From Cyclobacteriaceae bacterium (lineage in GTDB: Bacteria; Bacteroidota; Bacteroidia; Cytophagales; Cyclobacteriaceae): a stretch of 64,000 nucleotides of DNA. Shown here piece after piece: positions 4,648 to 25,365 of the stretch. Below the pieces are notes generated by a model. The model did not search any database, was not told where the DNA came from, and saw only the letters and a list, made by a program, of their open reading frames with translations. The DNA lies in contig WFNR01000114.1 of the NCBI GenBank assembly GCA_015488485.1, forward strand, positions 1 through 64,000, given 5' to 3'. Both the position numbers and the translations under genes were made by a program. How positions within the stretch are numbered: the first letter of the stretch is position 1; each line of letters begins with the position of its first letter.

Positions 4648-7600
4648 TTAGTGCTGTACTACAAATCTGAAGGTGGCCGTGCCATCCTTGGTTTGTACGC
4701 TTAGATAATAGATGCCCGGATTAAAGTTTTGGGTAGCTATCTCAAAGTGCTGCCTGCCCGCTGCCACTTGCTGGTGTAGCAGGGTTTTGCCGGTAACATC
4801 GCGTATCAACAAATCGGCAGCATTTGCCAGCGGTTGTGCCAGGCGCACGTTTAGCCTTACATCGGCCGGATTGGGATACAGGGCGATGCGATTGCCGTTA
4901 TCCAGTTCTTCAACACCCAGCACCAGATTGATGGTGGGAGTGGCCCATTGTGCCTGGTGCACTTCTTTGGTCAGATTATCCTGTACAAATACCACTACAC
5001 GAAGATTGCTGGGATCAAGATTACCATTATTGAGGATATCAACCGGATCCCACGTGCTTTCTGCGGTAACAGATTGCCCTAAAGGAAGTCCACCGGCCAC
5101 TTGGGTGCCTGCTGCATCCGGCAGCATCTTGAGCAAGGTAGAATAGAAATACTCCTCTCCCGAGGCAATGCCGTTGAAGGGTATCTCGCTGGCCGCTAGC
5201 GAATCGGCCACAACAGCCATGTGTATAGTAATGTCATTGTTAATTTCATTGGAGAGAGAGGTGATAGTAGCACTAAGGTGTAGTTTGCCATCGCCCACAT
5301 CGGGCGTAGTGATGTTAATGTCAAAAGGAGATATTTGCAGTGTGCGTTGGCTGTAGTAAGTCTCGCCCCATGCTGAAAACAGCTTGTTTTCGTTTCTATT
5401 CTGACTGCCGTCAATCACCGCTCGCGGGGTAGTATCTATGCCATAGTAGAGCGCCCTGGCATCTGGTTCGGCCGGATTTATCTGATTGAAATAATCAGGG
5501 CCGTCTGCTGAAGTATGGTAGTTGATTACCACCAACTCGGCACCGGTGGGCTGGTTGGCCAGGTTACGAATGACCTGATTCTCCGTTTTGTTAACGGCAC
5601 TGCCGGCCATGCTGGTGAAATGCTCGATCAGCACGGTGCGGGTTCGGTTGCCCATAAAGACATTGTCGAAGGCAAAACCTCCGGTATTCTTGGCAGCCGG
5701 AATGCTGCCCAGCCCGAAGCGGAATACCACATTGGATTTGATTTTTTTAGCTTCATTGACATCGCTGGCTGTTTTATAGATTTCACCCAGATCGTGTTTG
5801 GCTGTTATCCATCCTGTGTTGGTACCGGTCCAGCCCAGGCCGGTAGGGTCAACACCGGGTGTACCGGCCAGCCCTACCGCATTAAACCAGTTAATACCTT
5901 CGTTTTGCTTGCCCAGCGACTGCCATTTTTTATTGGGGTCCATGATATTCAGACTATCGGTTGAGTATTCGAAGATGACCCCGTCTTGCTCTTCCAGGTC
6001 TATGAATACATCGAATTGGATCATCGGTCTGTCAAGGCTACTGAAGTCTATTACCGGACTATATACATACGAGCGTTCGGCAGAGTCGTACGGCACGGTA
6101 AGGCCGGTAACCCAGATACCCGGTTGTTGATCAGTCCCGGCCGTGATGCTTTTACCACTGGGATTACCCCAGGCCCACGATGAGGTACTTTTCGGCTGGC
6201 CGCTGGCATCGATTTCGGGCAGGGCCAGCCAGTTGCCATCGTCATTGTTAAAGGTTTCATTATAAATGCTGTCGGCCGTGCTGCCGGCTACTTTATTATC
6301 CAGAATGGCTATTTGGCGGGTCAGGCTGTCGCTGCAGCCGGTAGAGGATACCGCTACAAAGCGCACATCATACACACCCGGTGCTGAATATTGATATTTT
6401 AAAATATTGTTGTTATCGGATGTGGAGTCTTGATCATCATCAATCAAATCGAAACTGCCATTGCCATCCACATCCCATTGCACTACATCAATGGTATGGG
6501 CCAGCGAGGCACTGCTGGGCTCTACTGTAGAGGTGCTCTGGAAGGCAATGCTGTCGCGCAGGCTCAGGCCGGTAAATATAAAGGATGGTTGCGGTATGCC
6601 ACCTACTACCAGTTGCCGGCTGGTATCGGCCTGGCAGCCGTATTCACTCACTACCTGCAAGGCTACATTGTAAAGATCAGGGTCCAGGTAAGTATGTACG
6701 GTGTCTTTGCCACTGGCTGTATTGGGGTTGTTGCTGGTAGCATTGGCATCATCATCAAAGTTCCACGACCAATCCACAATAGCCGGCAATACGGCATTGT
6801 TGGTGCTGGCAGCTACAATAGCCGAGTCGCTGGCACTGTAGCCAGTATAGTCGCTAAAAGCAATGGGCGTGTCCTCGCATATAATGGCCGGTACACTGTA
6901 ATCGGCTACCGGTGCAGGATGAATGCGTATGGTTTGGGCCACGCTCGTGTTGCACAAGCTGCCGTCCTGACTGGCGACAAATTTAATATTCACCTCACCA
7001 TAACCACTGGCTGCCGCCATCTGGGCCAGGTCGATAAAGCCGGTACCATCGCCATTGTCAACCAGGCCGGGATAGCCGAGGCTGTCGGTGCTGAACTGTG
7101 TGGGGATGCTCACCGCAAAATAGCCGTTGCTGGTGCTGCCTTTAAGCTCGATGGGTGCCTCATTTACACAAAATTCCAGTTCGGGGGGTGCCTGGATGGT
7201 GGGTAGAATGTTCAGGGTGTCGAATGAGTTATCGCCAATCGAACCGTAATTGTCGATGGTGATTTCGGCCGTAGGCACAAAGTAAATTTTTACCCGCTGT
7301 TTGAGTGTATCAAATTGTGTTATATTTAAGTTACTTTGATAGATACCGGTAAACAATAATTCGCCTATAAGCCCTCCGTTGTTGGTTTGGTTGGCGCTGT
7401 TAAAGAACTTGTCGAAATTCTGTTTAATATGAAAAGTGGTGGGGGTGAAAACATAATTACTGCCGGATATAGAAAGGCTTAGGTCTTCGCTCACACCGAA
7501 GGTATTGACTGTATCCACACCGGGTGGCTGGTCGGGGGGCACATCCACAGTTAGTTGTATCAAGGTGAAGTTGGTACGTGCGGTAGAGCTGACAATGGCG

Positions 7601-10600
7601 GTATCGAGCGAGCAATACTGATTATCAAGGCCTACTATAGCATTGTCGCTATCAAAGATGCTTCTGGTAAGCGAATACTCCGACACGCAGCCCTGCTCAT
7701 CGGTATATTTGAAAGTAATGGTATGTGTGCCGATACCGGCCACCTGTGTATAAAGGGTGTCGCCAAATACACCGTTGCCAAAGAATTCACGGGTACCTTT
7801 ATCCAGTGCACTCAGGTCGGGGATAAGCGCTACACTGCCTACCGCATCTCCTATGGAGCTGGTATTGGGGTCGGTGGTGAAGGTGACAATGGGGCGCTGC
7901 GTAGTATTGAGTGAAGCCAGCACCGTGCCATCGGCAATGCTCAGGGCGCCTGTGCCGCCCAGTCTGATGATATCGCCACTGGTTCCGGCACTTCCAAGCG
8001 CTTTTACCTTCAAGTTCTTAATAATAAGCTTGTCACGCTGATTGGTGCCGGATATATCGTATGATACGGTGAGGATAGTCTGGTTCAGAAAATCATAGCC
8101 GGCATTGCTGATGTTGCCACCCTGGGCCAGCACCTCTACCGAAGTGGTATCGAACTCGAAACCGGAAGGCAGCACCAGGTTGATGGTTTGCCCGGAACCA
8201 CTTACGAAAGCATTGTTGGCGCCTTCCACCAGATTGATGGGGGCCAATACGGTTTGCGGCTCACCCAGGCAAATATCACTGGGATTACCACTGGGGGTAT
8301 TTTGTACGATGATACCACCACCTGTACTTAGCAATGTGCCATCTACGGCTACCTGGGTACCTTCAGCCATAGCGTTGGGCAAAGGCAGGGCATTATCCTG
8401 TGCGGTAATCCATACTCTGAAATCATTGCCGGCCGAGAAAACAGCCGGATCGAATATACTGAAATAGTGATAGGCGTTGCCACTGCCAATATCGGCCGAG
8501 TCGGCAGCCAGGATAGTGCCGAAGGTACGGTTGCGTATTTCAGTTACAGTGGGGGTGCCGCTGTCCACATTCGGGTCTACCACGATGTAATAAATCCGGC
8601 CGGGCTCATCTAAAGCCACCTGCAAGTCAAAGCCTACATCAATAATATTGACCGCTGCCGGTGTTAAACCGGCCGGAAAAACAGGTGGTACGTTGTCGGA
8701 GGTTTTGAATACCCAATCGTTCTTACCGGTAATACCGGCAAATTTATTGCCCGACAGGTCACTGAAAGAATTGGCGGCCACCAGAATATAGTAATTGGTG
8801 TTGTCTTGCAGCGTACTGCCTGCCACCGGAGAGGTCGGGTCATAGTAAAAGGTGACACTATCGGTACTGGCCAGCGGATCAATTTTAAGTACGGCTACCA
8901 GCGTATCGGCTGTCAGGCTGTAGATCGACAGGGTAGAGTCTACCGGCAATACGCGCTCATTGAAACGCAGTGAAATCTGATAACTGGCCGGGAAATTGGG
9001 ATCACCGTTGCGTGGGGTTAGACCATCAATTTCGGTGGTGTTGGGGTCGTCATATACAGTAGGGGGTATGGCATCGCGGAAGCCGTAGGTACGCCCGACC
9101 AGGCTGGCACGTACTGTACCACTCGACAGGTTAACATCTTGTGGCGTGGCCGGAGTAGCCGTAATAGTGGGGGTAATGGCCGGATCGGCCAGCGAGGCGG
9201 TGCTTTGTACATCCACCACTACAAACAAGTACTTGGTACCGGTTGACAGATCGAGGTTGATATTTTGAAATTCAACATCGGTAGCATTGGTAACCACTGT
9301 GGCACTTAGTGGCATGTCCGTACCCTGGTCGTATTTATTATCGGCAGAACTTACCAGGCGAATATTGCTTAGGGTGCTGGCATAGGGGTTGCCCATATTT
9401 ACTGTGAGGCTCTGCAATACAGGCTGGGCAGCAGTGCCGGTTACGGCTGTGATTTCAAAGCCGAGGATGGCCTTGTTTACGCCTGAAGCAGGCAGAAAAT
9501 TACCAGCTTCAATACCATTGTTGGTTTGGGATGTTGACCCTCCGATGTCCAGGGTGGTAAATTCGGTATGGATTACATCAACAGGTGTAGAAGTAGCGTT
9601 CAGCGAGCCGGCTACGATGGTGAGGGTGCCGTTGCCGGGAGCTGTGTAATAAAAGCCCGTGAAATTCAGCACGCCACTTACGAAGGCCGTTGGCACGTTG
9701 GCCATGCCGGCTCCGCTGGTTACGGTGGCGCTGTTGTTGAAGCTGATATCAAGGTTGCCTTTGCTGTCTTCCGCCCGTACGGTGGGCAGCACGGGGGTAG
9801 GGGCTATTTCAATTCCCTGGATGGCATCCAGAGGTGTGGTCTGGAAGACCAGTGCCGTGGCTACAATATCGAGCTTGTTTTTGGCCGGATCGGTAAAAGG
9901 TAATGACAGGGCGCCATCCATTAAAGAGCCGCCCAGCCTGGTTTCGATATTATCAATGGTAACCTGGATAACGTCACCCTCATTATAAGTGTCCTGAAAA
10001 CTGGCTACGATAGTGAATACTCTTTTATTGTCATCGGCAGCGAAGAACAAGCCATTGGCCAGGTCTTCGAAATTGATAACCGGGGCAGCATTTACCTCTG
10101 TTACCTCTACAAAAGTGCCGGAGCCAACCGGCTCTTCGATGTAGAGAGCTACTTTTTTCAGATTGGTTGAGTTGGTAATGGCTATATCCAGGTCGGTAAC
10201 CCGTGTTTCAGCGCCATCGGCATCGGGTATGCCACCAAAAGTTGGCGAAGTGCCATCGTACAGGATAAAACGGGCAATTTCCACATCGGCTACCCCATCA
10301 TTTACTATGTCATTGGCATCATACTGTACGGGCACGATGATACTATTCAATACCGCATTATCGGCTACCACAAACGATTCGGCCGAGGCCCGCACTTCAA
10401 TAGCTGTAGTGTTACTACTCAGGCCGTTGGCCTGGATCTGCAACTGTCCGGCCGGGCTGGCACCGGCATCGCGGTATTGAAAAGCCGCGTCAAAATCCAG
10501 CTTGCCGGCTGTAAAGCTATCGGCAGTGGTGGGCGCATTGAGCATGGTGAGTCCACCCTGGTTGGTTACATCGCTACTTAGGTTGAAAGTAAAATCCACA

Positions 10601-13600
10601 TCCCGGTTAGCGGCTGCATCGCGTGCTTCAGCCCTTACCTGATAAGGAGTGTTGATATAGGCAACAGCAGGTGGCTCAAGGGTAAAATCGAGAGCGGTAG
10701 CATCTACATCCAGCGCCAGCGCATCACCCGAACTGGTACTTTCACCGGCACCTATCTGGCTTGAGTTGGTTTGTACGTTGAAATACATCTGCTCGGCAGT
10801 GAATTCAAGTTTCTTGTTATCAACCAGTACGGTAGGCTCCATATATCCGGTCATGGGGAAGGCAAAGCCGCTTACCCTGAAATCGAGCGAATCGTATAAC
10901 CAGATGTTCAAGGTGTAGGTTTTGCTGGTATTGTCGCTTACATAGCCAATGCTATCGGGAGCGGTGCTGAGCGATTTAAATCTGATATCGGTAGGAGTAA
11001 TAACTCCGTTGGCCGTATTCCCCATGTCATCGGTCAGGGTGGCACCGGCAATTATTTGCGTCCAGTCGTTAAAGGCGGCATCATTATAGGTTGCACCGGG
11101 GGTAATCAAAATGTCAGAGAAGATCGTGGCAATACCGTCATCTTCGGCACCGCCATCATCTGCTATCACAAAATCAAATACGGCAACACCGGGGGCGGCT
11201 GTATTTAAGGATGAAATGTTGGCCGGCTCACTCAGGCTGCCGGCAGTGATCAGGGTGGTTTGGGCTACCCGTACGGTTACGCTGTTACTCACAGCAATGT
11301 TTGGTATTATACCATCGGCATTTGTATTTGTAGCACTAACCCCCAATGTGCCATTACCGGCCGAGCCATCGCTCACATCGGTGTACTGGAAGTTGGCGGG
11401 AAATGTTGCAATGCCATTGGTTATGTTGGTCGGTACATTGCTCATGCCCAACCCCTTGGCGTTACCGACCGTAATCGGTGATGAATAATCCAGGTCGGTA
11501 TTGCCCAGGGCATCAACGGCTGCCACTACCGGTGCCGGGCTTACATTGGCCAGCACAAAGGCAGTGACAGGTGGCTGGGTGGTAAAACTTAATTGGGTAG
11601 TTACCACCTCAATACGGTTGAGGTCGCCTGTTGAAGGTGTGGCGGCTGCAAAAGAGGCAAAATCCGAACTTTGGGAATCGGTAGTTACATTGGTGATGGT
11701 GAATACCGATTGTTCATTATCATCTACCACGCTATTGTAGCTTACGTAAAGTTTCAGGGTAGCAGAAGCGTTGTCAGGGGTAACGAAATTAAGGCCATTA
11801 AAAACCACAGTAGCTGCTCCGGGCATTTCGGCTAACTCGGTTGTGTCGCTATATAAAGCGATGCGTCTGATATTTTCAAAATTGCTGATACTCACTTCCA
11901 AAGAGGTGATGGTGGTAGGGGCGGTATCGGGGTCGGACAGGTCTGCGCCTCCGTCTTTAACAATAAACTCGCCAACCTGTATTTCACCAATGCCATCCAG
12001 TACAATATCATTTTCCTGGTAATTGATGTAGCGAATGTTGGCCGCAGGCGTAAAAGCCGTAGCTTCCAGGGTGGATTCCACGGATACAAAGACCTCAAAA
12101 GGAGTGCTTACGGAAGGGGTATGGCCGGTCAGTGAGGCTGTCAGCGTCAGATTGGTGCCTTTGGCGGTGTGCACGATGGCCGGGGCCATGCCAAAACCGT
12201 TAATAAGTGGTACTGCCAAGGGGTCGCCCGTCATCGTGCCTGATGAGGACAGACTTACAGTAGCATTGTTGTCGAGGTCACGATTGTTGTTGGCGTCAAT
12301 GACCTCCAGGGTTACGGACGGAGTCATGGTAGCCGATAGGGTTACATTGCTCGGCTGGGTAATAAAAGCCAGCCGGTCAGAAGTAACCTCAATGCGGTTG
12401 TTATCACCTGTTAGCGGACTAGCAGCCCCTCCGGCATCGGGAGCAGCAAAGGTAGAACCGGTGGCTGTAGCTGCTGTTACGGTAAATTGAAAATTCTGGT
12501 TGTCAGTAACCGTGCTGTTGAAACTTACATAGAGGCTGAATGTCTTGCTGCCGTCATCGGGAGCCTCCAGATTCAGGCCGGTAAAAGTAACGCTGGCGGC
12601 AGCCGGCTGGTTGGCAATGATACTGGTGCCATCATGTAAGCCGATGTTACGAACATTAGCAAAATTGCTTAGGCTAAAGGTAATATCCTCTAATACCGTA
12701 GCTGCATTGTCGGGGTCATTGGCTGCTCCACCGTCACGAATAGTGAATTCCGCTACTTTAATATCACCTACGCCATCTCCATTTACTGTTGCTTCCTGGT
12801 AGTTTTGATAAGGAATATTATCAGTAGGGTCAAAGGTCGTAATTACAATATCCGACTGGGCATCACCGGAGACAAAAGTATAGGGCCCGGTATCATCGGA
12901 GGCAAGCCCGGACAAGCTGGCCCGGAAAGTATAAGTGCCGGCTTTATGCACCTGCATATCAGTTCGTGTGAAGGCACCGTTCACCAGGTTTTCATCCGTG
13001 TCGTTTGGAAAACCATCCGATTCCAGATAACCACCGGGAGGGGCACTGACGGCAGTCATGCTAACGTTGCCCGTACGATCAAAATCGCGGTTGAGGTTGG
13101 CATCGGTAGCCTGTACGGTCACCGTAAAGTTGGCATGCGGGTAACTGATACCGCTTACCGACTGCCAGTAAAGGCGGCTGGCAGTTACAGTAACCGTATT
13201 GTTGCTATTGCCCGAAGAAGCAGAAGAGCCTGTAAACTGGCTACCGTTGGGAGGCCCGCTTGCCAGAGTAATATCACCATCGGATATTGAGAATACCAGA
13301 TTTTTGTTGTCAATATCCAGGCCGGTGGTTACGATATCGCTACGCAGCCATACCCTGATTTCGTAAGTTTTGGTGGCGTTGTCGGCTATGTAACCCAGGC
13401 TGCCGCTGCTACTGGGTATATTGCTGATCGTGATGCTGTTGGCAGCGATCACGAAATCACCAGGATTGTCCTGCGAGTTGATGCTGTTGGCACCGTCCGA
13501 GAAGATCACCCCGGCAATCACCTTGGTCCAGTCACCGGTATTGTCGGCTGCTGCACGGTTGATCACCATCTGACTGATCAGGGTAGGGGCGGTATCCACA

Positions 13601-15378: not shown

Positions 15379-15390
15379 TTTCTTGTGTTT

Positions 15391-16569
15391 TTACTCGTTG
15401 GTTAATTTTCCTTCACGCGTTAATTTCACCAGCATCATCAAGTCCACATCGTTGGTGTTGGTCATGGTGGCCAGTATCACCAGCCCACCATCAGTGGCCT
15501 GTACCAGGGCACTGCCTGTTTCATTGCCGGTACCACCTATGATGCGGGTAAAGCCGGTCGTTCCGGTTTTGCGGACATAAAGATCATAGTCGGTGCGGGC
15601 GCCATTGCCATCCACCCGTTTGTCGGTATAGCCCAGCACTACTATGCTGCCGTCCGAAGCAGTAATAGCGGCATTGCCATACACATCGTTGCCGGCTTCG
15701 CTAAACACCAGGGGCTCACCTACCGGAGCAATACTGCCACTTGTGCTGAACATGGCCAGGGCAACGGCCGTTTTGCCGGTATCGGCCAGGCGGATGGTCT
15801 GGGTAATCATGGCCCCGATTGGCGCTTTGGCCAGACCGCCTGTTTGCGACAGTACGGTCATCCCCGGAAAGAGATCATCCAGTTGCCCACGGTGCTGGGT
15901 GTTATCGGCCGGAGTGATCATGGCGCTGATACTGTAATTGTTGCCGGCCTCCTGATTGCCGGTAGCCCAGATTATATCCCCGTTGCCAGCTTCCAGCATA
16001 TTGCCAAAGGTAATGCGCTGAGTATTGCTGGTGCCCCATTTTTGCGGCCCCCAGCTCTGGGTAAGATCGGAGGTGTAGCCGGCCAGAAAGATGGAGTCTC
16101 CGTCATTCTGGTAGCCGCTAACGATGATTTCACCGCTGGCAGCAGCCAGTATGGCACTACCGCGCAGGCCGGATAAATTGGTGTATTGACGGTTGTTACC
16201 TTCCGTATCGGTTTTGATGAGCGCCATCGCAGCGGGTAGGTTGTTGCTATTAATGCTATCACCCACTATAAAGTAACCGTTGGCGGTGACAGCCAGCGCT
16301 TTACCATCAATGTTTGGCAACTGAACAGCCCACAGCCTGTTACCCTGCAGGTCGGTTTTTATCAGCAAGGAACTGATACTGCCGTCACGACCGGTATTGA
16401 CCCCCAGGAGCAAATAGCCGTCCGCCAGCCTGGCCAGATCGCGTGCCCGGGTGTTACCGTCTTCACCATAAAACTTCATAAAAGCCTGTGTTTGGGTCGG
16501 TTCAAGGTCGTTCAGACTACAACTTGTAGTCAGTAAAAACACTGTGATATAAAGCAGATATCTGGTCAT
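15391..16569 (-). CDS. Propeller-like outer-membrane lipoprotein
   Basis: A 392-residue protein with a short signal sequence and an LLTTSC lipobox-like site, which puts the lipidated cysteine at residue 17. The mature part is built of repeated strands of the type DGYLLLGVNTG, NGYFIVGD and GEIIVSGYQNDGD, alternating with DLQGNRLW-like blades. This is typical of seven-bladed propellers related to delta-60 or quinoprotein-like repeats. The likely location is the outer membrane, on either face. It sits between the outer-membrane barrel gene (6-base gap) and the giant adhesin (12-base gap, same reading frame), so I infer that it helps display or anchor the adhesin. No catalytic motif is visible. 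Confidence 0.75.
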   Translation of the reverse strand: MTRYLLYITVFLLTTSCSLNDLEPTQTQAFMKFYGEDGNTRARDLARLADGYLLLGVNTGRDGSISSLLIKTDLQGNRLWAVQLPNIDGKALAVTANGYFIVGDSINSNNLPAAMALIKTDTEGNNRQYTNLSGLRGSAILAAASGEIIVSGYQNDGDSIFLAGYTSDLTQSWGPQKWGTSNTQRITFGNMLEAGNGDIIWATGNQEAGNNYSISAMITPADNTQHRGQLDDLFPGMTVLSQTGGLAKAPIGAMITQTIRLADTGKTAVALAMFSTSGSIAPVGEPLVFSEAGNDVYGNAAITASDGSIVVLGYTDKRVDGNGARTDYDLYVRKTGTTGFTRIIGGTGNETGSALVQATDGGLVILATMTNTNDVDLMMLVKLTREGKLTNE

Positions 16570-16575
16570 CCCGGC

Positions 16576-17643
16576 TTATAAAGGTTTAGGTATATAAATA
16601 TTCAAAGTATATCCCAGGGAGATGGCTATATGGTGCAGTTTGTAGATATCATCCTGGATAAGCGTATTGATTTGTGCAGCTTGCGATGGCTGTAATACGC
16701 TGCCGGGTTTGGTCAGGTTAGTAAAGCTATAGGCATAGCGCAGTTCCAGCGACAGGAATCCCTCGCCCACCTTGTAAGTAGTACCTAATCCGGCTTGAGC
16801 GCCAAAGTTGAGCGGTTTTTTGTCAGGGGTAGTGGTAAGCTGAAAGGTTACATCCTGGTCGTTGATCATTTGCAGCACATTGGCATCTACCGGTTTGGTG
16901 GCTTTAAGCAGATAATCAACCGACAGGCCGCCAAGCAGGTATAGCTTGAACTTAGGCTGTTTTTCAAAGGAAATGACGTATTTGGCCGATACCGGTAGTG
17001 AGAGCCATTGCATTTCCTCAAAAGTAGTGGTGCTGATATAGGGGCTACCGGTGGCCGTACCGGTTTGCGACTGGGTACGTTGAATGGCCATGTTCCTGAA
17101 TTGCAATTCGGGAAAAAGATAAAGCCTGTCGGCTATTTTATATTCAAAATTAATTCCCAGGCCAAACAAACCTACGCGCGGCTGGTAAGCCGGTTTGTCG
17201 CTGTTCAGATCCAGGGCGCTGTTGAGTTGGGTTACCTCTGCCTGCGACAAGTTCACCATATATTTAATACCTATATTAAAAACTGGCTCATGACGAAACT
17301 GATTATACAGGGTGATGAACTCGGTGGGATCGATAGCCGGGTTGGTGCGGAATTCATGGTTGGTTTTGAGCAGGCGCAACATGGTGGCCTCGGCTTTTTG
17401 ATCTTCATCCAGAAAAATATAAGCCAGCGTAAGCAGCCGCAAGGCTTCGGCTTTTTGTGCCTTGGTAAAGTCGGCCTGTTCCAGGCAGTTTAACAGCAGG
17501 GGCTCAATATCCTGAATACGCCCCTCATCGTAGCGTTGCTGGGCCGTCTGGATATTCTGCACGCATGGCTTATCTTCACTATCCTGAGCACGAGCAGAAT
17601 AAGCTAAAGCAACGATTATTAAAATACATATAATTCTCTGCAT
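16576..17643 (-). CDS. Outer-membrane beta-barrel protein with TPR-like N-terminus
   Basis: A 355-residue protein with a signal peptide ending ...ARAQ at residue 20. Residues 25-125 look like helical TPR-type repeats (QQRYDEGRIQDIEPLL, AEALRLLTLAYIFLDEDQKAEATMLRLL). The rest, from about 130, is an alternating-hydrophobicity beta barrel (FGLGINFEYKIADRLYLFPELQF, LSLELRYAYSF) ending in LGYTLNIYIPKPL. I infer a barrel of 8-10 strands with a periplasmic helical domain. It does not look like the T9SS-associated PorP/SprF family, which lacks the N-terminal helical part. The gene begins 1 base after the STAND gene ends, so the two are almost certainly co-transcribed. Confidence 0.75.
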   Translation of the reverse strand: MQRIICILIIVALAYSARAQDSEDKPCVQNIQTAQQRYDEGRIQDIEPLLLNCLEQADFTKAQKAEALRLLTLAYIFLDEDQKAEATMLRLLKTNHEFRTNPAIDPTEFITLYNQFRHEPVFNIGIKYMVNLSQAEVTQLNSALDLNSDKPAYQPRVGLFGLGINFEYKIADRLYLFPELQFRNMAIQRTQSQTGTATGSPYISTTTFEEMQWLSLPVSAKYVISFEKQPKFKLYLLGGLSVDYLLKATKPVDANVLQMINDQDVTFQLTTTPDKKPLNFGAQAGLGTTYKVGEGFLSLELRYAYSFTNLTKPGSVLQPSQAAQINTLIQDDIYKLHHIAISLGYTLNIYIPKPL

Positions 17644-17644
17644 A

Positions 17645-20600
17645 TCAGTTTGTTATATCGCAAGTATTAGTATCGTACGGATCTTGCTCGGTTATCTCCA
17701 TTACATAGGTTTCCCATTCATCTTTTGTGAAGCTACGGTTGATGAGTTTGCACAGGCGCCTGGCCATCACCTCAATGTTCATCGGCCAAACTTTCACCTC
17801 GCCCTCTTCGAAGCCTCCGCCAAAGAGATAGCGGCTGTCGGGAGAGAAAGCCAGCGAAGAGGCCCAGGCGTTCAGGGTAAGCTGATAGGGCAGGTCTTTG
17901 AGGTTGTCCATATTCCAGACGCTGATGGTCTTGTTAAGGCTGGATACGGCCATGTATTTGCCGTTGGGGCTGAATTTGACATCGGTGATGCGTGCCTGGT
18001 TATCGGAGAATATACGCTGTTGCTTTTGCAGGCGGGCATCGAACAAACGGATGAAGCCATCCAGTTCACCGGCTACCAGATAGTTGCTGTTGGGGCTGAA
18101 GCGGATAGCGGTAAACACGGCCTTGGGGTAGGTGGGGTATTCCACCAGCCGATTATTGTTTTGTAAATCCCAGACATAAATATGACCATCCTGTCCGGCA
18201 CCGGCCATGTAGCGACCGTCATTGCTGATATCGAAGTCATTGAGCTTGGCTGCCGGTTTGATGAACTCCCTGAGCTGCTTGTCGGCCGGTAGCACTTCCA
18301 TAATATTATTACCACCTTCGGCCAGTACAAAGAAACGGTTATCCGGTGTGGATACCTCTATATCCTTTATTTTGCCTTTCACACCTGGTATTTCCGTTAG
18401 CTTGCCATTGTTCAGGTTCAGTATCTCCATATACCTGGTGCCATCGGGTTTGCGAAAATCCCCAGCCAGCAGCAGTTGTGTTTTGTCAGCCGACAAAGCC
18501 ATATCATTGATAATATGGGTAGTACTGCGGGCCGGTAGCAGGGTGTCGGCCAGCACCTGTTCGCCATCTATGCGCCAGGCCAGCACCTTACCGTGTGAGT
18601 CGCCTGTATATACATAGTCATCGCTACTGCGGCCGGTAGCCAGGGCATATACCTGCTGGTCGTGGCCACGCAGCGATTGGGTAGTGATATCGTTGAAGCC
18701 GCCCTCTGCCAGAGCCGAATAGATGCCGGCATAGACATCGGCATTGAAGTCGGGGCCGTCAAACAGCACATTATACTTATAGCCCTGGGCGGCCAGCAGG
18801 CCCTTTAGCTGCGGATCGGGAAAGTTGCGGGTGGCTTTAAGCGCCAGCGCTCTTGACAACGAGAGGTAACGTTCCTTGCGGGCAAGTTCGGCTTGCTGGA
18901 TAGCCAGTTTTTTATTGTCATCGGCAATTTTACGGGCTTTGGCCTCCAGCTCTTTGGCCTTTTCTGCCGCTATCCTGCGCTGTTCTGCCAGAAAGCTGGC
19001 TGCCTTGGCGCTGTCCTCAGCCAGGCGCGCACGTTCGGCTTGTATCTCAGCCAGTTTTTTCTGCTGTAGCGCTCGGGCCGCATTTACGCGGGCGCTATCG
19101 GCATTTATTTTTGCCTGCCGGGCATTCTCATCGGCAAGCTCTTTTTGTTTTTCCGCTTCTATGCGTTTTTCTTCGGCTACCTGGGCGTTCTCATCGGCCC
19201 GCACCTTTTCGGTATAGGCAAAAAGCAGGATGATAACACTGATTACGGTGGCGCCCCCCATTACCATGGCGGTGATACGGGCGTTGCGTAACGCTCTGCG
19301 GGCCTGTAGTTCCTTAATGCGTTGTTCTTCTTCGAAGGCCTTGCGCGAATTGTCGAGAAAGACCATGGTGCGCTCATAGGCGGGGTCGTAGCGCTGCCCC
19401 CACACCAGGGTGGGTTTTTGCTTGATCTGCCAGTTAAGCGCCAATTGCAGGTCGGGAGGGCGCCACAGGCTACCCTTGCCGGCCTGGTGCAGGGCCGCGG
19501 CCTCGGCCAGGCGCAGGTACATGTTGATCGACTCGGCCTCCTCATCCACCCAGTTTTTCAGCCTTACCCAGATCCGCATGAGGCTTTCATGCGAGATGTC
19601 AATCATCGAGTCGGCCGTCAGTTCTTTGCCTGCCGGAGGCATTAGCAACGAGCGCCCGGGCTCTCTGAATTTCTCAATTACCGCAGCCACCTCTTCTACC
19701 GACACATCGGCTATGGCGGCTATCTCGCCCAGGCGGGTCGGGCGCCTGATGCCGAAGTTCTCCCCGCGCTTCTCGGTGATCGTCTTAAACAGCACGGCAC
19801 AGATATCGCGCTGCCGGTCGTTGAGCTCTTCGTAGGCTTCGTTGGCGTGCAACGAAAGCGCCTCTTTCATGGTGCCGATGGCCTCGTAATGTTTCAGGTC
19901 GATAGGCTCATCACCTTCGCGATAGCGCATCCAATAGTCGTAGGTGCGCATCAGGGCATGCTGCAAGATGGGCAGTTGGTCGGGGTTATCGCCCAGGTCG
20001 TTGAGCAGGCGTTGCACCAGGGTAGAGGTGATCTTGCCACCACCCACGGCTACCGGCCCTTCGATGGCCCTGCGCTTTTGTTCGCGGGTAAGCTGTGGTA
20101 TCAGATAGTGGCTGTCGTTGATCTTGCTGGTAAGCTCGGCATATTGGGCGCAGTCACCGATAAAATCGGAGCGCATGGTGATGGTAACATAAATGGCTGT
20201 TTCCTCGTTGTTGACCGCCTCCATCAGCAGGTTGATAAAGGCCAGCGATTCGTTGAGTGCCTGGCCGTTGGTGGTGCTGCTTTTGAACCTGAACAGCTCT
20301 TCAAACTGATCGATCAATACCAGGAAGTTCTTGCCGGTGGTCTCTTTCACCTGGCGGATGGCCTCCACCAGCCCTAACGAGCTGCTCTTCATGAGCGAAG
20401 TCAGGATGGTGCGTTTTATGCGCTGCTCATCCTCATCGGCTGCCTGGTAGGTAGGGTCTTGCTCCAGCAGCGCCTCTGCCAGATTACTGATAGGGTTGCT
20501 GCCCGGGCGGGCTACTATCACATCCCAGTTGGGACCGGCATCGGTGATAAAGCCGCCATACAGGATAGGCAGCACCCCGCAGTACACAAATGACGATTTA

Positions 20601-20776
20601 CCACTACCCGAAGGGCCGATTACCGCTACAAAACGGTGCTCAGAGAGCTTCATCAGCACCTCATCGGTTTGCCCTTCGCGCCCGAAGAAAAGGTGGCTTT
20701 CATCGATATGAAAAGCCCTTAACCCCGGAAAAGGGTTGAATATCTTGGTGGTTATGGTGGTGGCTGCGTTGCTCAC
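17645..20776 (-). CDS. nSTAND-type ATPase with membrane helix, coiled coil and WD40 propeller
   Basis: A 1043-residue STAND NTPase of the nSTAND1 type. It opens with the family hallmark NPFPGLRAFHIDESHLFFGRE, then Walker A GPSGSGKSS (54-62) and Walker B LVLIDQFEELF (152-162). A winged-helix-like region lies near 330-400. A strong membrane helix follows at about 503-525, with arginine-rich sequence before it. Then comes an Ala/Glu/Lys-rich coiled coil (about 526-645) and a WD40 propeller (about 690-1010; for example YVYTGDSHGKVLAWRIDG and GHIYVWDLQ). By the positive-inside rule the ATPase is cytoplasmic and the WD40 part periplasmic (inference). STAND proteins are signal-operated switches. The gene starts with GTG and overlaps the stop of the TIR-like gene as GTGA, which points to translational coupling. 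The barrel gene follows at once. Confidence 0.9.
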   Translation of the reverse strand: MSNAATTITTKIFNPFPGLRAFHIDESHLFFGREGQTDEVLMKLSEHRFVAVIGPSGSGKSSFVYCGVLPILYGGFITDAGPNWDVIVARPGSNPISNLAEALLEQDPTYQAADEDEQRIKRTILTSLMKSSSLGLVEAIRQVKETTGKNFLVLIDQFEELFRFKSSTTNGQALNESLAFINLLMEAVNNEETAIYVTITMRSDFIGDCAQYAELTSKINDSHYLIPQLTREQKRRAIEGPVAVGGGKITSTLVQRLLNDLGDNPDQLPILQHALMRTYDYWMRYREGDEPIDLKHYEAIGTMKEALSLHANEAYEELNDRQRDICAVLFKTITEKRGENFGIRRPTRLGEIAAIADVSVEEVAAVIEKFREPGRSLLMPPAGKELTADSMIDISHESLMRIWVRLKNWVDEEAESINMYLRLAEAAALHQAGKGSLWRPPDLQLALNWQIKQKPTLVWGQRYDPAYERTMVFLDNSRKAFEEEQRIKELQARRALRNARITAMVMGGATVISVIILLFAYTEKVRADENAQVAEEKRIEAEKQKELADENARQAKINADSARVNAARALQQKKLAEIQAERARLAEDSAKAASFLAEQRRIAAEKAKELEAKARKIADDNKKLAIQQAELARKERYLSLSRALALKATRNFPDPQLKGLLAAQGYKYNVLFDGPDFNADVYAGIYSALAEGGFNDITTQSLRGHDQQVYALATGRSSDDYVYTGDSHGKVLAWRIDGEQVLADTLLPARSTTHIINDMALSADKTQLLLAGDFRKPDGTRYMEILNLNNGKLTEIPGVKGKIKDIEVSTPDNRFFVLAEGGNNIMEVLPADKQLREFIKPAAKLNDFDISNDGRYMAGAGQDGHIYVWDLQNNNRLVEYPTYPKAVFTAIRFSPNSNYLVAGELDGFIRLFDARLQKQQRIFSDNQARITDVKFSPNGKYMAVSSLNKTISVWNMDNLKDLPYQLTLNAWASSLAFSPDSRYLFGGGFEEGEVKVWPMNIEVMARRLCKLINRSFTKDEWETYVMEITEQDPYDTNTCDITN

Positions 20777-22233
20777 AATACTTTGGTCAGGTTGGCAATA
20801 AAGGCATCAATCTGTTGTGCCAGAGGTTCCTTGTCTTCCAGGCGCAGTATTTCAATGTCGTGTTCACCATAGAGGTCAAGGGCGGGGGCATTACCCTCTG
20901 CGACAATCACTGCCCGGCCGACAATCGGTTTTTGACGTCCCAGCCCCGGGGCTTTAAGCAGATCAAGGGTTTTCATTCTTACCCAATTGTCTTTTACCTT
21001 GCCTTTGAAGATTATACCTATGTCCATAGCTTGCAGGCGCTCGATATGGGCTTTGCGCAAGGTCAGCACATCTCCGTCCAGTTCAGGGTGTATTACATTG
21101 AGGCCGGCCTTGGTTAGCTCCTTACCGGCCAGGCGTGCTTGCTCTTCATCCACCTTGTCATAGATCAGATAAACATTCAACTTGTTATCCTCCAGTTTTA
21201 CTGTGCTGGCTTGTTGATGCTGAACCGAGCCGTTTTGCAGGTATAATTCTTCCCGCAGGGTATTTTTAAAATCCTCCAGGGGCACCTGGAATATCTCGGT
21301 GGCTTCCAGGGCACTCAGGTCCCGCTGGATATTTTCAATAAAAGCCAGCTGCTGGTCGGTGGCCTTATCGATATTGGGATTTATCCAGATAAGACGTTGC
21401 AGCTTACGATGGCTGGGGTTGTTCTTTATTTTCTCGATAGCCAGGCGGTTTTGCAAATCTACCAGTGAACGCGTACCGCCTTCCGGAATATCGCCATAAA
21501 TCGTGCCTATCAGGTGGATAGACATCGTACTGGTGTCAAGCAGTTTTTTGATCATGGCCTCGGCAGCCTCCCGGGTATGCGGCAACGCTTGTGTGGGCAC
21601 TACCCGAAAGCCATGACGCTGCAATTCTCTGCGGATGATATTGCGCTGCACCACCAGGTCTTTGGCCGTTTCGGCCAGGTAGATAGTTTCACGGTCGTAC
21701 AGGGGTTTTATGCCGTCTGTAGCTTTGTTTATACTTATAGCCACCAAGGCATCGTGCAGGTCGTAGGCCAGATCAACCATTTTCATCCAGTAAATATGCT
21801 CGGCTTCCGGAGAGAAATAGTCATCGAAAATCAGCGATTCGCCCGATTCATAATCCAGGTCATAAAGCTCGTAAGGCAGAATAGCCTGAAGTACGGCCGG
21901 CTGTTCGCTATAGGGGACATCAGTCAGCATAACCTTAAAAAGCAAAGGCGGGTCGTGCGGGCCGTGCAGTTTGTGAAACTCCTCCACTGCTTCGCGGCAG
22001 TTGGCGCTCTTAACGAAGTTAGGCGATACCACCGACAGCAGCAGACGGGTATTCTCCAGTTCGCCATGGGTAAGCACCTCTTTATCGGATTTTTTAAGAA
22101 TCTTTGGCGGATGGCCGGTAATCTGGCTCAACATGATGGTAAGAAAGCGTTCGAAATCAGCCACCCAACCACGTTTGCCCTCTTTTGCCAGGTTGTCTTG
22201 TTCGCTATAGTTGATAATCAGATCGTTTTGCAT
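20773..22233 (-). CDS. Protein with three TIR/DUF4062-like segments
   Basis: A 486-residue cytoplasmic protein. Residues 1-165 look like a TIR domain: LIINYSEQDN on the first strand, then LLLSVVSPNFVKSANCREAVEEF. Residues 184-330 resemble the DUF4062/TIR-like fold (IYLAETAKDL...RRELQRHGFRVVP...SIHLIGTIYG). Residues 352-480 have a third TIR-like pattern (LNVYLIYDKVDEEQARLAGKELTKAGLNVI...DIGIIFKG). Where active TIR NADases have a Glu three residues after the Cys, the simplest alignment puts Ala82 here, with Glu81, Glu84 and Glu85 nearby. Enzyme activity is therefore uncertain and a scaffold role is possible. It is encoded 12 bases after the transporter-like gene and is translationally coupled to the STAND gene, so it is a likely signalling partner of the latter. 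Confidence 0.7.
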   Translation of the reverse strand: MQNDLIINYSEQDNLAKEGKRGWVADFERFLTIMLSQITGHPPKILKKSDKEVLTHGELENTRLLLSVVSPNFVKSANCREAVEEFHKLHGPHDPPLLFKVMLTDVPYSEQPAVLQAILPYELYDLDYESGESLIFDDYFSPEAEHIYWMKMVDLAYDLHDALVAISINKATDGIKPLYDRETIYLAETAKDLVVQRNIIRRELQRHGFRVVPTQALPHTREAAEAMIKKLLDTSTMSIHLIGTIYGDIPEGGTRSLVDLQNRLAIEKIKNNPSHRKLQRLIWINPNIDKATDQQLAFIENIQRDLSALEATEIFQVPLEDFKNTLREELYLQNGSVQHQQASTVKLEDNKLNVYLIYDKVDEEQARLAGKELTKAGLNVIHPELDGDVLTLRKAHIERLQAMDIGIIFKGKVKDNWVRMKTLDLLKAPGLGRQKPIVGRAVIVAEGNAPALDLYGEHDIEILRLEDKEPLAQQIDAFIANLTKVL

Positions 22234-22245
22234 ATTCTACTATTT

Positions 22246-25200
22246 TTAAACTGACACAGCATTGGTTTGATAGGGTTTACCTGCCAGGGCAAAGAACCTC
22301 TCCAGCATGTCAGGATAATTTATCATGATATCAAAAATATTATTAATCGGAATGGCAAGCAACTGCACATTGCCTTGTGCCTGAAGTATTTGCCGGCTGC
22401 TTTCGTTATGGCAAAGCCAGGAGCCGGCCACATGGGTATCGGTAGGCAAGACCACGCTATGTAACTCGCTGCTTACCCGGGCTTTGCCATCGAAGAGCAC
22501 AAAAAGCTGCTGCCGGTAGTTGTGCAGGGGTAACTCTTCATTGCTGCTCAGGGTTTGCCAGTGAATAGCCTCAACCATCTGCGACAGCAACAGGCCGGTA
22601 ATATGTTGAAATTCGGGTAGTTGCTGCAGGTAGCGGACTACATCAAAGCGGAAAGGTATCTGGCGTTCAATTTTATGCACGATACGTTCAAAAAACTGTA
22701 CCCGGCCGGGCAAGCGCTGCAATACACTGCGATATTGATCGGGCCGGGTGTTGTAGGTAATCCAGGTAGCCAGCTCCGCCAGCATAATGTCATCATTAAA
22801 CATGTGGGCGACAATATTGTCGTCAACCTTCATTTCCGGATTTTGCGAGATTGCCCACAGGGTGCAGGCGCGTGTCCAGGGGTTCAGATTGGTGCATTCC
22901 TTGTTTAAAATATAATGGTAGGTTTCCTGTTCCTCGTACCACTCACGGGGGTAATAGATCTGCAGTTTATCCAGTTTCTTTTTGGCATCAATATCATCCA
23001 GCAGTGGGAACAACCTGGGTTTGATGTCTTTGGCCAGAAAAATATCGAGCAGTTCAATGGCATAGGCAATGCTTTCTGTGGTACCCAACTCCATATTCTC
23101 TTTTACCAGTGCCACTGATTGCGGATCGTAAATAAGCCCCAGCAACATGTAGATAAAATCGAAATTACTTTGAATTTCTTCATTAAGGGCTGCTTTGAGT
23201 GGTTGATTATAGTCGTTGTCCGATAGTTCTTCAAGCGCTACCGTGCTCCACAGGGCTTTGCCTATTTCCTCAATGAGCAAGTCGTTGAAGGTAAGTTTTT
23301 CTTTGTCGGTAGCCTGGTAGTTCTGGCGACTGAGGGCGATCAGCACCTGCTTGACGATCTTGCGGTTTGGGAAGTCGATTTTTTGCCAAAGCAACCGATG
23401 CGCTTCGGGGCCGCCAATTTCCACCATTATATTGATAATTTTAAGCATGCCGCTCAGAATCTGTCCGGAGCGGTGAAAGGCATTTTCCAATACGGGCAAC
23501 ACCTCTTCACCGGCAGCCACCAGGGCAGCGGCTGCTTCATAGGTAAAAGTACCGTGGTTGATCAGCTCGAGCAAGAGCGGCCAGGCTTCTTTGCGGCCTA
23601 CCTTGCGGGCGGTGGCAATAGCCTGCTTGCGCACTTCGGTATCCGGATCGCGCAGCAGCTCGAGCAGTACGAATATATTGCTGTCGTTGATGTGGCTACG
23701 CAAAAGCTTGGCGGCCAACAGGCGATCCGCTTGTTGGCGGCTCTTGGCCAGGGTATATAGCCGGTCGTCCGATACCGAGATTACATTGCTGCTGTCGGCC
23801 TGATGAACGGCATCCTGAGCCAGCTTGCTGATAGTATCGCTGGCTTTTTCCTGATCGAACTGCAGGTCCATCTCCTTAATCTTTTGTTGGGCGTAGGATT
23901 GAACCATGCCCGTACCTTCCTTGGCGAGTCGCAGCATTTCAACCTCGAAGAGGGCCGGAGCAGTCTTTTCAAGCATTTTAAGCTTGTTGAGATTGTTGTC
24001 GTCAAGGTGACTATCTGCTTGTTCTTCGGCCATTTCAACCGATTTGGCTTTTTTGCCTTCTTCCAGGGCATTTTGCAGGGTGTGCCGGTAGCCGCCATAC
24101 ATACGTTGGGTAAGGTAAAACCATATCAGCAAAACGGGTATAACGCCTAGCACGATATAAATCTGCGACAAATGGAACTGGTTCATCAACAACAGCAAGC
24201 CACCGGCCAGAAAACCACCCAAAGCCATCACCGTACCTTCTATTTTGGTGTTTACATCCATCTTGATGTTGCTGTTGATGGGTAGGAAGTACAATTTAAA
24301 AGTAGGGCCATCAAGGGCGTCTTTGAGAGAGTCGATGAATAGCTTGGTGGCGGCAATGGCCAAAAAGAAATAGGTGATATTGACTCCCGGCCCCGGCTGA
24401 TACCCGAAGAACATGCCCACCAATACGGCCCCGCCAATCAGCAGTACCGATAAAAACGGGTTTATCAATAAGGAAATTTTAAGGCCATAATTTTCTATCA
24501 ACCAGTCGGTTACGAATGTTTGAAACAAAAAACTAAAGATAACCACGGTGACTTCAAAGCTGGCCAGAAAGGAAGTCTTTTCAGCTTCGGTGGCCCATTT
24601 GGCGTTGATGACGTTCAGAAAAGAGTAATCAACCATGGTGAGGGCTATAAGTGATATAAGGATGAAGCCCACCATAAGTTTGGTATAGGGGTTGGTAAAT
24701 AGCTTGCGGTAGGGCAGCGTACGTTTACGGATGTCACCTTTTTGAGAGGTATGCAGTTTGTGACCCCTGAAAAGGGCAATGGAGGTAAACAGCATACCGG
24801 TTACACCGATGGCGCTGACCAGGAACAGGTCCACGGTTTGGATGATGTTGTTGTTGATAACAAAGGTGATACTAAAAAGTGCCACAATGGCTGCCACTAA
24901 CTGACCTGTATCTATACCGCCAATCAATCTTTTGGCCTGCTTTAGGTTAAAAACCCGGTTGAAAAAGCCCCAAAAGAGCAGTAAAGCAATATAAGAGAAA
25001 GGTAGCGCCAGTACAAAGCCGATGAACACCACTACCGGATGTTGTTGGCGAAAAGCCGAGAGCATCCAGACGGTAGTGGTAGTGAGCAGCATCAGACCGG
25101 TAAAACTGATTACCAGTATTTTGAAAGGAATACGGGCCTGCAGATAAGAATATATGGCCGTACTGATAATGCCAACGAATCCCGAAACCAGAAAGGCCTG

Positions 25201-25365
25201 GGCAAGAATGTTTTCATCCTCAAAATAATTAAGGAAAATTGCCGGAGCAGCCACATCATAGGTTGCCAGGAAGACACCCATAAAAAAGCCCAGCAAAAGC
25301 ATAAGCTGTACGCTCGGTATCTCCTCCGGCCTGGCATTCAGGACGTTAATAAGTAACTTTTTCAA
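22246..25365 (-). CDS. Npt/MFS-like membrane protein with HEAT repeats and cNMP-binding-like C-terminus
   Basis: A 1039-residue, three-part protein and the first gene of the operon. Residues 1-430 contain about 12 membrane helices and resemble the Npt1/Npt2-type nucleotide transporter branch of the MFS. Residues 440-870 are helical HEAT-like repeats (for example DPDTEVRKQAIATARKVGRKEAWPLLLELI). Residues 915-1039 look like a Crp-type cyclic-nucleotide-binding beta roll followed by helices (LFVLFDGKARVSSELHSVVLPTDTHVAGSW). The usual phosphate-binding GE...R(S/T)A cassette is not recognisable, so ligand binding is doubtful. The start is TTG at 25365; an in-frame TAG lies directly before it and no ATG occurs until residue 22. 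I infer an inner-membrane sensor or transporter feeding the TIR-like/STAND pair. Confidence 0.8.
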   Translation of the reverse strand: MKKLLINVLNARPEEIPSVQLMLLLGFFMGVFLATYDVAAPAIFLNYFEDENILAQAFLVSGFVGIISTAIYSYLQARIPFKILVISFTGLMLLTTTTVWMLSAFRQQHPVVVFIGFVLALPFSYIALLLFWGFFNRVFNLKQAKRLIGGIDTGQLVAAIVALFSITFVINNNIIQTVDLFLVSAIGVTGMLFTSIALFRGHKLHTSQKGDIRKRTLPYRKLFTNPYTKLMVGFILISLIALTMVDYSFLNVINAKWATEAEKTSFLASFEVTVVIFSFLFQTFVTDWLIENYGLKISLLINPFLSVLLIGGAVLVGMFFGYQPGPGVNITYFFLAIAATKLFIDSLKDALDGPTFKLYFLPINSNIKMDVNTKIEGTVMALGGFLAGGLLLLMNQFHLSQIYIVLGVIPVLLIWFYLTQRMYGGYRHTLQNALEEGKKAKSVEMAEEQADSHLDDNNLNKLKMLEKTAPALFEVEMLRLAKEGTGMVQSYAQQKIKEMDLQFDQEKASDTISKLAQDAVHQADSSNVISVSDDRLYTLAKSRQQADRLLAAKLLRSHINDSNIFVLLELLRDPDTEVRKQAIATARKVGRKEAWPLLLELINHGTFTYEAAAALVAAGEEVLPVLENAFHRSGQILSGMLKIINIMVEIGGPEAHRLLWQKIDFPNRKIVKQVLIALSRQNYQATDKEKLTFNDLLIEEIGKALWSTVALEELSDNDYNQPLKAALNEEIQSNFDFIYMLLGLIYDPQSVALVKENMELGTTESIAYAIELLDIFLAKDIKPRLFPLLDDIDAKKKLDKLQIYYPREWYEEQETYHYILNKECTNLNPWTRACTLWAISQNPEMKVDDNIVAHMFNDDIMLAELATWITYNTRPDQYRSVLQRLPGRVQFFERIVHKIERQIPFRFDVVRYLQQLPEFQHITGLLLSQMVEAIHWQTLSSNEELPLHNYRQQLFVLFDGKARVSSELHSVVLPTDTHVAGSWLCHNESSRQILQAQGNVQLLAIPINNIFDIMINYPDMLERFFALAGKPYQTNAVSV

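Follow-up and report, generated by a model that had tools for sequence, protein, structure and literature searches.

A conserved six-gene operon of Cytophagales that places a STAND ATPase beside outer-membrane and secreted proteins, and its possible role as a trans-envelope relay

Why should a bacterium keep the genes of a TIR-like protein and a STAND ATPase in one tight cluster with those of an outer-membrane protein, a lipoprotein and a giant secreted protein? The question is raised by a stretch of 64,000 nucleotides from a Cyclobacteriaceae bacterium (contig WFNR01000114.1 of assembly GCA_015488485.1; hereafter the window), in which six minus-strand genes lie within positions 4648-25365. 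Comparison with related genomes revealed that the six genes are one conserved unit and not a chance cluster, and several features suggest that the unit may act as a relay across the cell envelope. An earlier reading of the letters alone (hereafter the sequence-only reading) had described six consecutive genes with intergenic gaps of 12, -4, 1, 6 and 12 bases from gene 1 to gene 6, and the list of open reading frames (ORFs) of the window contained all six as described:

22246..25365, minus strand: gene 1, 1039 amino acids (aa), a fusion of an NTT part (ATP/ADP-carrier-like, MFS fold), HEAT repeats and a cyclic nucleotide-binding domain (cNBD); from the ORF, Pfam and profile matches
20773..22233, minus strand: gene 2, 486 aa, three consecutive TIR-fold domains; from the ORF, DUF4062/TIR_2 matches and a structural model
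17645..20776, minus strand: gene 3, 1043 aa, nSTAND1 ATPase, transmembrane helix, coiled coil and WD40; from Pfam and motifs
16576..17643, minus strand: gene 4, 355 aa, outer-membrane protein; from OMP_b-brl_2 (5.9e-11) and a structural model
15391..16569, minus strand: gene 5, 392 aa, propeller-like lipoprotein with lipobox Cys17; from conserved residues and blade repeats
4648..15378, minus strand: gene 6, 3576 aa, giant protein secreted by the type IX secretion system (T9SS); from Por_Secre_tail and TIGR04183

Conservation and inheritance of the gene order

Of the 146 genomes searched in its GTDB family and order, 66 contained relatives of gene 2, as a rule in one copy each. We compared the neighbourhoods of one set of 60 loci and a second set of 80 named loci, plus the window; some genomes occur in both sets, and hence are counted twice among the 140 gene-2 loci. 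The order NTT, TIR, nSTAND, outer-membrane protein, lipoprotein was complete in 108 of the 140 loci, and 17 more were cut by contig ends. Such synteny is beyond what chance clustering would give, and the genes do stand together in other genomes, a point on which the sequence-only reading had made its case depend. The same order was observed in Chryseolinea, Ohtaekwangia, Pseudochryseolinea, Fulvivirga and many metagenome-assembled genomes of Cyclobacteriaceae and Flammeovirgaceae, and a single-contig genome of 4,433,218 bp from the genus of genome G102 has the whole operon. Median gaps between the conserved genes were 13, 5, 3 and -4 bases, followed by about 22-28 bases before gene 6, and the genes often overlapped. 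Where the ORF after gene 5 was visible (109 loci), it shared the strand of the operon in 107, and all nine sixth genes whose C-terminus was checked (1642-5125 aa) carried a T9SS type A domain. Based on the tight spacing and the synteny, the six genes are probably transcribed as a single operon. Outside the taxonomic order of the window's bacterium, occurrences of gene 2 were rare and divergent, and a search for the TIR protein on plasmids returned two weak Caballeronia matches only.

A search with gene 1 revealed that many of these genomes have a further, paralogous locus, composed of NTT, nSTAND, outer-membrane protein, lipoprotein and large-ORF genes, without a TIR gene. The genome of the window has both forms; its TIR-less copy is split over two contigs (locus L171 on G000:C23, L268 and L271 on G000:C169) and ends in a 2509-aa protein whose tail, by eye, reads as T9SS type A-like. 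Where gene 2 stands alone at its locus (for example, in G037, G020 and G016), the NTT gene is found elsewhere, within a full TIR-less operon in G037 and G020 and as a solitary gene in G016. Since a TIR-less form of the operon exists, the TIR protein belongs to one form as an accessory and is not part of the core. At loci L038, L085, L087, L067 and L159, the triple-TIR gene alone has been kept and the other operon genes have been lost.

To follow the inheritance of the operon, we compared trees of genes 1-5 with that of rpoB in 30 genomes. Correlations of pairwise distances were 0.67-0.89 among the five operon genes and 0.59-0.76 between these genes and rpoB, the best value under a null of shuffled labels being 0.42, and 8-14 of 26-27 splits were held in common with rpoB. 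Because the gene trees match each other and that of rpoB, the operon appears to have been inherited mainly vertically and as a unit, unlike a mobile defence island. In the window, queA lies upstream of the operon, and a small plus-strand ORF followed by an SMC gene lies downstream; with queA and SMC as neighbours, the island sits among ordinary chromosomal genes.

Domain architecture and predicted topology

The domain content given by the sequence-only reading was borne out with refinements. The domains are as follows:

21736..22233, minus strand: TIR domain 1 of gene 2 (aa 1-166); Z 13.4 to the MyD88 TIR and 13.0 to the SPARTA TIR
21232..21696, minus strand: TIR-like domain 2 of gene 2, DUF4062 (aa 180-334); Z 12-13 to the N-glycosidases BcmB/MilB
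20776..21189, minus strand: TIR-like domain 3 of gene 2 (aa 349-486); Z 11.3 to the SARM1 TIR and 12.0 to 2-deoxyribosyltransferase
19481..20734, minus strand: nSTAND1 NTPase domain of gene 3 (aa 15-432), predicted cytosolic; Pfam and invariant motifs
19214..19276, minus strand: single transmembrane helix of gene 3 (about aa 501-521); hydropathy over 134 homologues
17777..18676, minus strand: WD40 region of gene 3 (about aa 701-1000), predicted periplasmic; Pfam and topology
17290..17565, minus strand: N-terminal domain (NTD) of gene 4 (aa 27-118), a predicted periplasmic helical adaptor with invariant C27 and C53
16594..17289, minus strand: OmpA/OmpW-like eight-strand barrel of gene 4 (aa 119-350); Z 17-19 to OmpA, NspA and OmpW
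4654..4881, minus strand: T9SS type A sorting domain of gene 6 (aa 3500-3575); Por_Secre_tail / TIGR04183

Gene 3 matched nSTAND1 (E-value 7.1e-95) and WD40 (1.1e-26) in Pfam, and its Walker A and B motifs are intact, with G54, G59, K60, S61 and the DQFEE motif conserved. Hydropathy analysis gave one transmembrane helix in 116 of 134 homologues, with a net charge of +4.2 on its N-terminal side and about 0 on its C-terminal side. This single helix and the strong positive-inside bias predict that the ATPase lies in the cytosol and the WD40 region in the periplasm.

For gene 2, Pfam gave DUF4062 and a weak TIR_2 match, and an AlphaFold model built from 32 sequences (predicted local distance difference test, pLDDT, 84) contained three TIR-fold units, each with structural matches at Z 11-13. 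The catalytic glutamate expected of a TIR NADase was not conserved in motif-level alignments of 145 sequences: in domain 1, the position three residues after the conserved cysteine is variable (E in 11 of 145), and in domain 3, where W417 is invariant and K421 nearly so, the matching place four residues after the tryptophan is lysine in 143 of 145. Thus, gene 2 is predicted to encode a cytosolic, non-enzymatic scaffold. Profile searches of the PDB with gene 2 and gene 4 returned nothing useful.

In gene 1, the window protein matched HEAT_2, and its cNBD fell below the threshold. Among 30 members of its family, HEAT_2 was found in 29, cNMP_binding in 16 (2.1e-11) and the ATP/ADP transporter family TLC in three (2.2e-10), and the family profile matched solved ADP,ATP carriers at 4e-17. 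By its domain order (NTT, then HEAT, then cNBD) and these family matches, gene 1 can be assigned to the NTT-HEAT-cNBD fusions, which have been described as widespread, with none characterised (Major et al. 2017, PMC5381601). That work treats single proteins, whereas here the fusion stands in an operon with nSTAND, outer-membrane and T9SS genes, a context not met in its accessible part. The protein probably resides in the inner membrane with its C-terminal part in the cytosol.

The model of gene 4 (pLDDT 86) combined an eight-strand barrel with an N-terminal helical domain. It has neither a PorP/SprF match in Pfam or NCBIfam, as would be expected of an anchor of that type, nor the STN domain, plug and 22-strand barrel of a FecA-type receptor. 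Reportedly, an outer-membrane protein of 348 aa, CHU_1797, was found by Ji et al. in 2013 to be needed for colony spreading in C. hutchinsonii. We considered it as a homologue of gene 4 and set it aside, as it is probably another gene: the homologue (about 364 aa) in the genome from the genus of G102 lies at 1.18 Mb, and CHU_1797 is expected at about 2.1 Mb.

Gene 5 of the window had no firm Pfam match, and its relatives matched DUF5122, SBBP or PQQ_2; C17 of the lipobox is invariant, and the alignment showed blade-like repeats. Gene 6 contained PKD, fn3 and an SWM repeat in addition to Por_Secre_tail (2.6e-10) and TIGR04183 (1.3e-11), and thus reads as a T9SS type A substrate. The T9SS component GldM was detected in 139 of 146 relatives and in the genome of the window, and such a near-universal system cannot discriminate carriers of the operon.

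The N-terminal domain of gene 4 in other lineages

A profile built from the NTD of gene 4 (alignment A7) detected this domain in other lineages, in some of them fused to TonB receptors or other proteins; in a sample of 395 genomes of the phylum, 29 had it. In three loci (L191, L193 and L197), it stands at the front of a large outer-membrane protein, which in L193 has the plug and barrel of a TonB-dependent receptor; the gene of this protein adjoins an NTT-HEAT-cNBD gene and the gene of a Reg_prop/Y_Y_Y protein ending in SpoIIE or a histidine kinase. The receptor gene of L193 is directly preceded by a partial nSTAND-WD40 gene. The same three loci contain, in between, a small gene (about 195-280 aa) without a Pfam match, which looks acyltransferase-like by eye.

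For a count of contexts, we used 20 NTD genes in 20 loci. Eleven of them directly follow, on the same strand, a gene for an inner-membrane transducer: nSTAND-WD40 in L211 and L219, a transmembrane-coiled-coil-WD40 protein in L214, a Ser/Thr kinase with transmembrane helix and PEGA in L212, L213, L215, L217, L220, L228 and L230, and a transmembrane-PEGA protein in L221. A twelfth (L216) lies after a hybrid histidine kinase gene. When the share of transducers among the ORFs of these loci is taken as background, the binomial tail for 11 of 20 is 4e-8. The value is conservative insofar as this background is itself enriched, but loci from related genomes are not independent. Given that NTD genes recurrently follow inner-membrane transducers, the simplest reading is that the periplasmic part of the transducer is the docking site of the NTD. 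This recurrence, together with the transmembrane helix and charge bias of gene 3, supports the trans-envelope role that the sequence-only reading had proposed.

It is possible, if tentative and at rather less than an even chance, that the pairing reflects a general kind of signalling from the outer membrane to the cytosol, spread over Bacteroidota and related phyla, in which a two-cysteine helical adaptor on diverse outer-membrane proteins (eight-strand barrels, TonB receptors and others) would dock on the periplasmic beta-propeller or PEGA of STAND ATPases or of Ser/Thr or histidine kinases, and which in Cytophagales would be wired to a giant T9SS protein. Bacteria would then possess an apoptosome-like ATPase listening to the cell surface.

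In the seven kinase-PEGA loci listed above, the gene that directly follows the kinase gene is small and encodes the two-cysteine helical domain seen in gene 4; in L213, the next gene after this pair encodes a 1422-aa protein, which has PKD repeats and a weak T9SS tail. Some versions of the operon contain genes of SpoIIE phosphatases or histidine kinases with Reg_prop/Y_Y_Y or HAMP. A HAMP-SpoIIE phosphatase gene is inserted between genes 1 and 2 in L050 (7436-9388) and L069 (10928-12961), and an ORF of similar size is present at the same place in L068 and L186.

A possible relay and its rivals

We propose, at about an even chance of being right, that the operon is one trans-envelope relay from the cell surface to a cytosolic signalling ATPase. 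An external cue such as surface contact, a polymer or a partner cell would first reach the giant T9SS protein and the propeller lipoprotein, located at the outer surface or in the outer membrane, and the gene 4 barrel would carry it inward through its periplasmic helical NTD. The NTD would bind the periplasmic WD40 region of the inner-membrane-anchored nSTAND1 protein, a contact that may license the cytosolic STAND domain to switch or oligomerise in an ATP-dependent way, as the N-terminal domain of FecA acts on FecR. The triple TIR-like protein might sit on the STAND domain as a scaffold without enzymatic activity, and the NTT-HEAT-cNBD protein might tie its state to nucleotide or cyclic-nucleotide status. 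The SpoIIE phosphatases inside some operons fit a signalling output. FecA is a TonB transducer that signals to FecR via an N-terminal periplasmic domain placed before the plug. The operon resembles it in having an outer-membrane barrel with an extra N-terminal periplasmic domain that faces an inner-membrane transducer, and in the distant variants the NTD stands before the TonB plug, in the place of the FecA signalling domain. It differs in that the NTD is helical with two cysteines rather than of the STN fold, and in that the transducer is a STAND ATPase or kinase rather than an anti-sigma factor.

Several observations weigh against this relay. The cNBD of gene 1 in the window is degenerate and is seen only in relatives; the evidence for a periplasmic WD40 region consists of hydropathy and charge; for nine of the 20 NTD genes, including the one behind the hybrid histidine kinase gene, no such transducer was recognised immediately upstream. 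Moreover, the likeness of the NTD to TPR-like helices means that its spread could in part be generic, and the direction of the relay could equally run from inside to outside.

The rival explanations differ in what they make of the cluster. It might be a mere transcription unit, whose genes are co-expressed for regulation and work in unrelated processes, but the order holds in several families, the starts and stops of neighbouring genes overlap in a coupled manner, and the genes have been duplicated as a block. Conservation of order in coupled, block-duplicated genes usually reflects joint function, and we regard this explanation as very unlikely. TIR and nSTAND modules are common in immune and defence systems, and the TIR fold of gene 2 is confirmed by the structural matches of its model, so that the operon could be an anti-phage or abortive-infection system in which the surface parts detect phage, the nSTAND protein assembles and the TIR domains deplete NAD+. 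PADLOC gave no system match for the operon and only weak P-loop matches (1e-4) for gene 3; the inheritance appears vertical, the copy number is usually one per genome, the canonical catalytic glutamate position is variable in TIR domain 1 and replaced by lysine in domain 3, and the TIR gene is optional. With PADLOC, catalytic residues and inheritance all speaking against it, we rejected the defence explanation, which is highly improbable. The overall interpretation of the sequence-only reading stood as to a conserved unit with a trans-envelope role; its immune or phage-sensing part was not supported, and the control of the adhesin that it had suggested is a putative one. Compared with known STAND/TIR conflict systems (PMC7159879; PADLOC-DB), the operon shares nSTAND and TIR-like modules, whereas its STAND protein is membrane-anchored with a WD40 region predicted to face outward, its inheritance appears vertical, and it has neither a PADLOC match nor a conserved TIR catalytic glutamate.

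In the main rival, control runs from inside to outside: the barrel would anchor or carry the giant T9SS protein, as SprF does for SprB, and the nSTAND protein would spend ATP on deploying, clustering or moving it, for gliding or attachment. This is less than likely in our judgement, though not far-fetched: the giant T9SS protein is always a neighbour of the barrel/lipoprotein pair, GldM is widespread among the relatives, and gene 4 has two invariant periplasmic cysteines, comparable to the twin cysteines that connect the outer-membrane proteins SprF and PorG to GldK in F. johnsoniae (PMC12635249). The likeness of an adhesin-like T9SS substrate gene beside such a barrel is limited by the OmpA/OmpW-like eight-strand fold without a PorP/SprF match, by gene 6 tails of type A and not of type B as in SprB, and by the presence of STAND, TIR and NTT genes, and the cysteines sit in the NTD, a domain met in TonB-receptor and kinase contexts too. 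An improbable alternative is nucleotide acquisition, in which gene 1 would import nucleotides, the outer-membrane proteins would capture nucleotides or let them in, a part that the TonB receptor might play in the distant variant, and the nSTAND and TIR proteins would regulate uptake. It draws on the assignment of gene 1 to the NTT-HEAT-cNBD family and on the NTT gene adjoining the TonB-receptor variant, but transport is not demonstrated for NTT-HEAT fusions (PMC5381601), an eight-strand barrel would not be expected to have a pore, and uptake would not need a multi-kilobase adhesin-like gene.

Each part of the operon belongs to a known family. Taken together, they appear to work like a trans-envelope transducer, one that these comparisons place outside the FecA family, SprF/SprB and the catalogued defence systems, and there is a real chance that the operon defines its own class. 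The open-access literature yielded no paper describing this gene combination or a named system with this set, nor one on genes CHU_100x-101x; subscription journals were outside the scope and some searches were noisy, so this is not proof of absence. STAND ATPases have been studied as cytosolic immune switches. If the proposed relay is true, a conserved, vertically inherited STAND-WD40 protein, passing through the inner membrane and linked with an outer-membrane barrel and a T9SS protein, would extend this type of switch to sensing the outside world. It would also give NTT-HEAT-cNBD proteins a first functional setting, suggest a candidate mechanism, open to testing, by which gliding Cytophagales sense or control contact with surfaces, and make the NTD an adaptor domain usable to find other outer-membrane signalling systems.

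Finally, a small gene, a rhomboid protease gene and an OmpH/Skp-like chaperone gene form a conserved run that can stand ahead of either form of the operon (L181, 6970-8981; L033, 2964-5934). The rhomboid protease was identified in L181, and a similar ORF is present in L033, a locus that also has a histone-deacetylase-like gene. Upstream of the operon in L033 (2132-2962) lies the gene of a second small barrel protein, related to the gene 4 barrel and without the NTD, and similar upstream ORFs were observed in L032, L034, L039, L043-L045 and L047 of the same clade.

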